From contig NJBN01000007.1 of NCBI GenBank assembly GCA_005223185.1, positions 126,001-190,000 of the forward strand: a stretch of 64,000 nucleotides of DNA, given 5' to 3'. Made by a program: the position numbers and the translations under genes. The DNA is from a candidate division LCP-89 bacterium B3_LCP (GTDB lineage Bacteria; Electryoneota; B3-LCP). The stretch's first letter is position 1. Each line of letters opens with the position of its first letter. The notes beneath the pieces were generated by a model. It saw only the letters and a list, made by a program, of their open reading frames with translations. It was not told where the DNA came from and did not search any database. Of the stretch, positions 7,374 through 13,923 are shown piece after piece.

Positions 7374-8390
7374 TTAGGAATCGTCTTCTGAACTTGGAGA
7401 GTTTTCCTTTTTATCTTTTATATTCGCATCCGCTGCTTCCTCCTCAGCAACAGATTTCTCTTCAGTATTTTTCTTGGGAGCTGCCTTTTTCGTCTCAGTT
7501 TTAGCTTTAGGTTTTGCTTCCTGTTTTGCTTCTTCTGTCTCTGCTTCTGGCATACTCTCAGCTTCTTCTGCAACCGGAGTTTTATCTTCTTCCGCAGGAG
7601 CTGCAGTTTCTTCAACAGTTTCTGCCTTCACTTCTTCAATAGCTTCGGCGCTGGCTTTATCTGCGCTTTCGGCTGCCTCTTTTGCAGGAGCTTTTTTCTT
7701 CTTCTCTGAAGTTTCGGCTTCCACCTTTTCCGGTTCAGCATCTGCTGGTTCTGCTTCGGCAACTTCTGTTTCAGGTGCGCTGTCGGCTTCCGCTTCTGCA
7801 GGAGCTTTTTTCTTCTTCTCTGAAGTTTCGGCTTCTACCTTTTCCGGTTCAGCATCTGCTGGTTCTGCTTCGGCAACTTCTGTTTCAGGTGCGCTGTCGG
7901 CTTCCGCTTCTGCAGGCACTTCTTCTTTCTTCTCAGAAGTTTCGGCTTTTACCTTTTCCGGTTCGGTATCCGCTGGCGTTGGCTCTGCAACGGCTTTTTC
8001 TTTCTTCTTGGCAGCTTCCACCTTTGCCTTAGCATCAAGAATTGCCTCATGCTTAGCTTGCAGCTTATCCTCCGATTCGATACGGAAGCGCGACACCTTA
8101 TCCCAGATCTCCTCGTCTTTCAACCCTCTCTTCTGGAGATCGAACGCCATCATGATACCACGGCGCGAAAGAATCTTCCTGACGGTATCGCTGGGAATTG
8201 CTCCCACACTCAACCATTTCAGGGCTTTCTGATCGTCAACCAGGATCTCTGATGGCTGCGTTCGGGGGTTGTAGTGCCCGATTTTTTCGATATAAGCTCC
8301 ATCCCGCTTTTTACGGGAATCCACTGCCACAATCCGATAAAATGATTGCTTTTTACGCCCCATGCGCATGAGGCGAAGTTTTACTGCCAC
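7374..8390 (-). CDS. rpsP: Small ribosomal subunit protein bS16 with a very long repetitive C-terminal tail
   Basis: 338 aa against about 80-90 aa for the family. Residues 1 to about 88 are a normal S16 (VKLRLMRMGRKKQSFYRIVAVDSR, GHYNPRT, ALKWLSVGAIPSDTV). The rest is a low-complexity Ala/Glu/Lys/Pro tail. It includes a 38-residue unit (114 bp at 7684-7797 and 7798-7911, with one mismatch seen between copies) and a diverged third copy at 7912 onward. No stop or frameshift breaks the tail, so it is presumably translated. It is the first gene of the khpA-rimM-trmD-rplS cluster, with ffh upstream. The tail is predicted to be disordered and highly charged; its role is unknown. Confidence 0.95.
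   Translation of the reverse strand: MAVKLRLMRMGRKKQSFYRIVAVDSRKKRDGAYIEKIGHYNPRTQPSEILVDDQKALKWLSVGAIPSDTVRKILSRRGIMMAFDLQKRGLKDEEIWDKVSRFRIESEDKLQAKHEAILDAKAKVEAAKKKEKAVAEPTPADTEPEKVKAETSEKKEEVPAEAEADSAPETEVAEAEPADAEPEKVEAETSEKKKKAPAEAEADSAPETEVAEAEPADAEPEKVEAETSEKKKKAPAKEAAESADKASAEAIEEVKAETVEETAAPAEEDKTPVAEEAESMPEAETEEAKQEAKPKAKTETKKAAPKKNTEEKSVAEEEAADANIKDKKENSPSSEDDS
7684..7990. repeat. 114-bp tandem repeat inside rpsP
   Basis: Copies at 7684-7797 and 7798-7911 differ at a single visible position (CCACC against CTACC); a third, more diverged, partial copy follows from 7912. The period is a multiple of three, so each copy adds 38 residues in frame. Near-identity of two copies indicates a recent duplication or ongoing length change by slippage or recombination. 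Confidence 0.9.
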
Positions 8391-11740: not shown

Positions 11741-11767
11741 TAAAGTTCATCTGAAAGATGCCGATAA
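11741..11767 (+). promoter_or_regulatory. Sigma28 (FliA) promoter
   Basis: TAAAGTTC (11741-11748), an 11-base spacer, then GCCGATAA (11760-11767). This matches the enterobacterial FliA consensus TAAAGTTT-N11-GCCGATAA at all but one position. It lies 45 bases upstream of the MerR-type gene, with flagellin next, so the pair is expected to be a late flagellar class operon. Confidence 0.88.
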
Positions 11768-11811
11768 GAATATTAGACGAGCGCAAAACAAATAGCTAAA
11801 GGGGGTGACCA

Positions 11812-12171
11812 ATGAAACCAATTAAGCTACCTGAAGAAACCCTGTATTCGATTGCACAAGTTAACGCAATCACAGGAGTCGCAAAACCGACAATTCGGTT
11901 CTGGGAGAAAGAATTCAGGGATTTTTTAAACCCAATGCGCACGCAGGGCAACCAGCGGCGTTACAAACGAACGGACATTAACATGATCGAGCGAATTAAT
12001 CATCTAGTACGAACCGAGGGCTTCACTCTTGAAGGCGCTCGCAGAAAATTAGACACCGAGTACGATGATGAACCCAGGGCAAAGATACCGGATGATGATC
12101 AACTGGCGAAATTAGCAGATACAATGTCTGATTATCTGCTGAAGAAACTTCTAGAAAAATCAACCGCCTAA
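11812..12171 (+). CDS. MerR-type DNA-binding regulator in the flagellin operon
   Basis: 119 aa. The N-terminal MerR winged helix-turn-helix is clear (SIAQVNAITGVAKPTIRFWEKEF, then RRYKRTDINMIERINHLVRTEGFTLEGARRKL). The C-terminus is short (about 45 residues), with no obvious metal-binding cysteines or ligand domain. A strong GGGGGTG ribosome-binding site precedes ATG 11812. The gene is transcribed from a sigma28 promoter together with flagellin (39 bases downstream). It could regulate flagellin or other motility genes, or be the small stand-alone type that needs a partner. Target unknown. Confidence 0.85.
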   Translation: MKPIKLPEETLYSIAQVNAITGVAKPTIRFWEKEFRDFLNPMRTQGNQRRYKRTDINMIERINHLVRTEGFTLEGARRKLDTEYDDEPRAKIPDDDQLAKLADTMSDYLLKKLLEKSTA

Positions 12172-12210
12172 AAACAAAATGAGATATAATCTCTAAGAGG
12201 GTGAACCGAG

Positions 12211-13044
12211 ATGAGCACACGAATCAATCACAACATACTGTCCATGGTGGCACAGCGAAGTATCTGGAATACCCAGAACGACTTAGATAGGTCCGTACAA
12301 CGCCTGTCATCGGGGCTCAGAATCAACAACGCATGGGATGATCCCGCGGGGTTGGCAATTTCCGAGCGCTTCCGAGCGCAAATCTCCTCAATGGAAGAAG
12401 CTGAAAGAAACGCAAACTCTGACATTAACCTGATGCAGACGGCTGAAGGCGCGCTGGCTGTTTTGGATGAAACTCTAATACGCATGAGAGCACTGTCTAT
12501 TCAATCATCCAATGGTGCGCTAACCTCATCTGACCGTCAAGCGTTAGACGTTGAATTCCAGCAGCTTCTGTCTGAAGTTAACCGTATCTCACAGGTTACG
12601 AACTACAACGGTTTATACCTGTTAGATGGGTCCTTCTCCTCCACAGGTGTAAAGTTCCATATCGGGACTTACAACACTCAAGGAGAGGACTATTATTACG
12701 TTAACTTCAACTCAATGACCTCCTCGGCACTGGGCATAACCGGGCTGGATATAACCTCAACCGTAACTGCACAGAATGCCATTAATTCCATCGATACTGC
12801 GATCGATTCCAAGGACACTGAAAGAACCAGAATCGGCGCTTACGTGGAACGTTTGCAGGGAACTATATCACAACTGATGACAGCACGTGAAAGAGCATCA
12901 GCTTCAGAATCAATGATCCGCGATGCTGACATTGCGGCTGAAATGTCACAATTCGTACGCTCGCAGATTCTAATGCAGACCGGCATATCCATGTTAGCCC
13001 AAGCTAATATGGTGCCCCAGATGGTTGCCAGTCTGATTGGGTAA
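12211..13044 (+). CDS. Flagellin
   Basis: 277 aa, a short flagellin with only the D0/D1 domains. The conserved N-terminal block (RSVQRLSSGLRINNAWDDPAG, LMQTAEGAL) and C-terminal block (ERASASESMIRDADIAAEMS, MLAQANMVPQ) are intact, with about 100 less conserved residues between. Subunits are exported by the flagellar type III system and form the filament. An AGAGGGTG ribosome-binding site precedes ATG 12211. No other flagellar gene is in the window, so the basal body must be encoded elsewhere. Confidence 0.95.
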   Translation: MSTRINHNILSMVAQRSIWNTQNDLDRSVQRLSSGLRINNAWDDPAGLAISERFRAQISSMEEAERNANSDINLMQTAEGALAVLDETLIRMRALSIQSSNGALTSSDRQALDVEFQQLLSEVNRISQVTNYNGLYLLDGSFSSTGVKFHIGTYNTQGEDYYYVNFNSMTSSALGITGLDITSTVTAQNAINSIDTAIDSKDTERTRIGAYVERLQGTISQLMTARERASASESMIRDADIAAEMSQFVRSQILMQTGISMLAQANMVPQMVASLIG

Positions 13045-13060
13045 ATCTGCTGTAATTATC

Positions 13061-13094
13061 AAAAAAAGTCCGGCGCCTCGTGCCGGACTTTTTT
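13061..13094. terminator. Bidirectional rho-independent terminator
   Basis: AAAAAA-GTCCGGC-loop-GCCGGAC-TTTTTT gives a perfect GC-rich 7-bp stem (longer with the A/T runs). It lies between flagellin (plus) and the ferredoxin gene (minus) and can end both convergent transcripts. Confidence 0.93.

Positions 13095-13108: not shown

Positions 13109-13923
<815 letters not shown>

Follow-up and report, generated by a model that had tools for sequence, protein, structure and literature searches.

The locus lies on the plus strand of a 64-kb window (the whole stretch of DNA that was analysed) from a genome of the phylum LCP-89/Electryoneota, referred to here as G000. It comprises a promoter, two genes and a terminator:

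11741-11767, + strand: sigma28 (FliA) promoter, TAAAGTTC-N11-GCCGATAA (the sequence itself; sole match in the window; orthologous loci)
11812-12171, + strand: merR, 119 aa (Pfam MerR_1, E 3.4e-19; alignment; AlphaFold2 model)
12211-13044, + strand: flagellin, 277 aa (Flagellin_N, E 1.2e-39; Flagellin_C, E 6.7e-20)
13062-13094, + strand: intrinsic terminator, a 15-pair stem followed by a T run, at the end of the two-gene unit

Both the Flagellin_N and the Flagellin_C domains are found in the 277-aa protein, which places it among the flagellins. The gap of 39 nt between merR and the flagellin gene matches the distance claimed in an earlier note on this DNA. We infer that the stretch from 11741 to 13094 is one FliA (sigma28)-dependent unit of promoter, merR, flagellin and terminator, which would be transcribed as a single message. 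Convergent with this operon, a small ferredoxin-like protein with two cysteine clusters is encoded on the minus strand of the window at 13112-13303. Also on the minus strand, at 7374-8390, is the gene of a bS16-like ribosomal protein of 338 aa in total, with a long acidic, alanine-rich and repetitive C-terminal extension.

A predicted sigma28 promoter upstream of merR

The promoter that the earlier note had placed ahead of the MerR-type gene can be read directly in the sequence, with TAAAGTTC at 11741-11748, a spacer of 11 nt and GCCGATAA at 11760-11767, leaving 44 nt to the merR ATG at 11812. Compared to the sigma28 consensus, TAAAGTTT-N11/12-GCCGATAA, the merR promoter agrees at 15 of 16 letters. 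It is the only match to the motif in the window, even when three mismatches are allowed. Shuffled sequence gives a mean of about one weak match (three mismatches or fewer), so that a match with no mismatch at the start of merR stands out.

The genome scan suggested in the earlier note found its only perfect match in the whole 3.79-Mb genome at the merR promoter; degraded matches showed no excess over a reversed-pattern control, and the members of the regulon therefore cannot be told from a plain scan of the genome. Conservation was evaluated with the pattern TAAAG-N14-16-CCGATA within 160 nt upstream of merR. The pattern is present in 24 of the 25 orthologous loci that are directly readable, and the spacer at the orthologous merR promoters is 11 or 12. 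The decisive evidence for the predicted promoter is its position together with this conservation. One could argue from the loose genome scans that the motif arose by chance and that another promoter drives the operon. However, dinucleotide shuffles of the same upstream stretches gave the motif in only 3 of 10,000 cases, and no sigma70-like site was found upstream of merR on the plus strand, which makes the probability of a chance match practically negligible.

No conserved operator, palindrome or dyad was found at the merR promoter, nor was a GlnR box (TGTNAN7TNACA). What is conserved there is limited to the sigma28 elements, the ribosome site and an A-rich stretch ahead of the -35. A conserved upstream block in family f6 was rejected as a regulatory element, being the end of the upstream gene. 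Activation of the MerR type through an overlong spacer was likewise rejected for merR's own promoter, whose spacing equals that of other flagellin promoters. In five loci of family f1 (L053, L087, L088, L089 and L090), the leader that separates the sigma28 site from the start of the main flagellin is conserved around AGGGGTGGACTCT; a similar sequence, GCAAGGGG, occurs in other families.

Conservation of the unit and its flagellar context

As judged by E-value and identity, a MerR orthologue is present in 33 of the 39 phylum genomes, the copy in G021 being a contig-edge fragment. Across the phylum merR lies nearly always directly before a flagellin gene, and a flagellin adjoins it in 29 of the 30 best loci, the exception being G024. 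At five f3 loci merR is located between two flagellins, with the sigma28 motif preceding the first of them. In f6 the unit is found inside the late flagellar cluster, flanked by flgK/flgL and glycosyltransferase-like genes on one side and by flagellin-fliD-fliS-flgM on the other. The promoter-MerR-flagellin unit is kept phylum-wide, and the lack of conservation that the earlier note had allowed for is not what the relatives display. The orthologue is missing from G003, G004, G018, G022, G037 and G038. G004, G018 and G022 are non-flagellate and lack FlhA, which is found in 34 of the phylum genomes; G037 and G038 are flagellated, yet have no MerR orthologue.

FliA is found across the phylum and FliS in most of its genomes. 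The earlier note had advised looking for fliA and flgM, and both are present in G000. FliA is encoded at C7:195336-195995 (TIGR02479, 245.7 bits against a cut-off of 189.6), which removes the objection that the genome might have no FliA gene. FlgM escaped the genome search but emerged when its protein was scanned (33.6 bits against a Pfam cut-off of 25). The main late cluster, on C1, contains flgK, flgL, glycosyltransferase-like genes, a FliT-like gene, flagellin, fliD, fliS and the FlgM gene. Another flagellin gene (C6:1174-2007) is preceded, at a distance of about 43 nt, by TAAAGTTC-N12-GCCGATA. Both fliW and csrA are absent from G000; in the phylum, 38 of the 39 genomes have neither CsrA nor FliW, the exception being G003, which lacks this MerR. 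Mutual exclusion of FliW and MerR was considered and set aside, as it involves this single genome and is not statistically meaningful. The G003 genes are arranged flgL-fliW-csrA (L072:2831-4523), and no flagellin was found in G003 beyond the FlgL-like protein.

Flagellin sequences tend to cluster by genome, whether MerR-linked or not, as expected from repeated homogenisation; the merR tree, by contrast, tracks lineage. It is therefore the regulator, and not the sequence, that marks out the MerR-linked flagellin copy, and the idea that this copy is a distinct paralogue was rejected.

The MerR protein

The protein matches the MerR_1 winged helix (PF13411) at 69.2 bits against a cut-off of 21.6, and its fold matches as well. 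A winged helix-turn-helix at about residues 12-81 is followed by a variable linker (86-94) and a conserved C-terminal helix (95-117). The AlphaFold2 model has a mean pLDDT of 81, with a confident winged helix and the separate helix 95-117 at lower confidence. Among solved structures, the closest to it are CueR, CarH, GlnR, TnrA and HiNmlR, which has no sensor. The domain scan found no effector, ligand or metal domain beyond MerR_1 in the 119-aa protein, and no NCBIfam equivalog reaches its cut-off.

Overall identity among the orthologues is 50-60%. In their alignment the DNA-contact fold and wing are nearly invariant, the linker is hypervariable, and the C-terminal LAxTMSDYLLKKL is almost invariant, with L101, A102, M105, S106 and L110 unchanged throughout. 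It was also asked whether this tail resembles known segments. As a mimic of the flagellin C-terminal segment it scored 4.2 bits, with many unrelated sites scoring higher among 52,000 positions, and over the same positions the tail profile did not single out the C-terminus of FlgM; both candidates were rejected.

The MerR copies of the phylum form one clade (90/87) in sequence trees built from a short alignment. Nested within the clade of these copies (MerR1) are duplicates, MerR2, with a tail similar to that of MerR1 and no flagellin neighbour; in several MerR2 loci a sigma28 motif lies some 100-120 nt ahead of the gene. Such sigma28-like promoters were noted at L060, L061, L064, L065, L066 and L069 (families f2/f3).

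Possible roles of MerR

The late stage of flagellar regulation is understood in a small number of model bacteria, where it involves FlgM, FliW-CsrA and secretion chaperones. Elsewhere, FliW and FliS are flagellin-binding proteins that couple the synthesis of flagellin to export (PMC6070490). GlnR and TnrA are described as small proteins resembling MerR whose flexible C-terminal part is an effector-binding sensor, and glnR lies within the glnRA operon (PMC6191146). The MerR studied here can be compared to each of these systems.

Like GlnR and TnrA of Bacillus and relatives, it is small, has a winged helix and a conserved C-terminal tail, and lacks a ligand domain. Its gene directly precedes a structural gene, as in glnRA, where the repressor senses the product of the gene that follows its own. 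In contrast to glnRA, the downstream gene encodes flagellin and not glutamine synthetase, the promoter is of the sigma28 type and there is no GlnR box. The tail itself has no profile match to GlnR or TnrA, the matches stopping in or before the linker. The layout resembles theirs, with the tail as a putative sensor. FliW-CsrA of Bacillus, Campylobacter and Clostridioides is similar in having a regulator beside flagellin and a proposed job of matching flagellin synthesis to need. FliW-CsrA, however, works at the level of mRNA, and MerR would be expected to act on DNA. Both kinds of regulator stand side by side on two Fibrobacterota contigs, in the order flagellin-fliW-csrA-MerR (L128:2240-4231 and L130:2042-4285). 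The FliA-FlgM checkpoint shares the sigma factor and promoter type, with FlgM also present here, but FlgM is an exported anti-sigma factor and MerR a DNA-binding protein. Classical MerR, CueR and SoxR have the same winged helix and MerR_1 domain. They differ in that MerR here has no metal or drug domain and has a flexible linker that separates off its C-terminal helix; its own promoter has spacing that is ordinary for sigma28 rather than stretched, with no conserved dyad.

From sequence, MerR is near certain to belong to the late (sigma28) flagellar regulon. Since the shared promoter and the pairing with flagellin are kept across almost the whole phylum, its action very probably falls in the late part of flagellum assembly. 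The earlier note had proposed this membership, which is supported by FliA, FlgM and the conserved unit, and had further suggested feedback at the filament stage; the latter goes no further than plausible, by analogy with glnRA and from the absence of CsrA and FliW.

As a whole, the best explanation, to which we assign a probability of about 0.5, would be a FliA-dependent unit whose MerR is a GlnR-like late modulator of filament-stage genes. Hook completion would free FliA from FlgM and switch the unit on, so that MerR would be made together with flagellin. MerR would then modulate filament-stage transcription, in a direction and at DNA targets that we infer, these being its own operon, the other flagellin genes or both. 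With no ligand pocket, it could use the flexible conserved C-terminal helix to govern dimer formation or to bind a putative partner protein, which would report the amount of filament protein made or exported. MerR may thereby fill the flagellin-homeostasis job done elsewhere by FliW-CsrA. That the sigma28-made MerR reads unexported filament protein or its carrier through the C-terminal helix, sets late transcription and replaces FliW-CsrA is, in these specific terms, unlikely.

The points that count for this explanation are the order of the unit, FliA/FlgM, the 33 of 39 orthologues and their absence from the three non-flagellate genomes, the position in the f6 cluster, the protein anatomy and structural relatives, the description of GlnR/TnrA, the absence of CsrA/FliW, the neighbourhoods in Fibrobacterota and in Dive96_bin2.216, and the contrast in grouping between flagellin and merR. 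For feedback in particular, the likeness to GlnR/TnrA, the absence of CsrA/FliW and the Fibrobacterota neighbourhoods are circumstantial supports. Against it count the lack of an operator and of a GlnR box, the retention of merR in f5, the MerR2 genes with no flagellin neighbour, and G037 and G038 with no orthologue.

Two f5 genomes, G024 and G025, have lost FlhA, FliS and intact flagellin and retain FliA and an intact MerR with the sigma28 motif. Between them merR has a dN of 0.17 and a dS of 0.90 (dN/dS about 0.19). In G025 a flagellin remnant of 71 codons still follows merR, suggesting that the loss of the flagellum may be recent. The f5 genomes therefore count only moderately against feedback, as the constraint on merR may predate the loss. 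Their keeping FliA and MerR with no flagellum also means that the target of MerR may not be flagellin alone. A FlgM-like gene, judged by eye, lies downstream in G024 (L078).

It is somewhat unlikely that MerR acts outward, the sigma28 promoter serving as a signal that the flagellum is finished, the targets lying elsewhere than in filament assembly (lifestyle, surface glycosylation or chemosensory genes, for instance) and flagellin being a mere operon partner. The MerR2 duplicates that keep a sigma28 promoter with no flagellin, the retention in f5 of FliA and of a constrained merR, the lack of an operator at merR's own promoter and the fusion of relatives outside the phylum to a PseB-like dehydratase would all agree with such targets. 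However, MerR1 stays directly before flagellin through lineage changes in all its surroundings, which suggests a functional tie to flagellin. It is quite improbable that MerR tunes FliA promoters directly through a conserved tail that contacts FliA, as the last FlgM helix does, or else RNA polymerase. MerR and FliA do stay together, also in the f5 genomes that have lost flagellin and FliS, but the DNA-binding domain is intact and the tail profile fails to pick out FlgM. Highly improbable is a merR carried in the operon with no flagellar role; the failure to find an operator would fit, whereas the linkage is retained phylum-wide and the tail is invariant in proteins of 50-60% identity.

To return to the preferred late modulator, a little-known uncultivated phylum pairs MerR with flagellin under sigma28 control, with neither CsrA nor FliW, and the feedback reading, if true, would add to the known means by which filament protein is kept in step with demand. 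No description of the MerR-flagellin pair was found in the part of the open-access literature that was searched.

In Dive96_bin2.216 a related MerR gene adjoins a flagellin. Single reading frames on Aerophobetes and Nitrospirae contigs (L149:3890-5263 and L153:3962-5257) combine a helix-turn-helix of the MerR type with a PseB-like sugar dehydratase. The two fusions share 45% identity in the dehydratase part, and the Aerophobetes fusion has a sigma28-like motif (3873) at the start of the gene.
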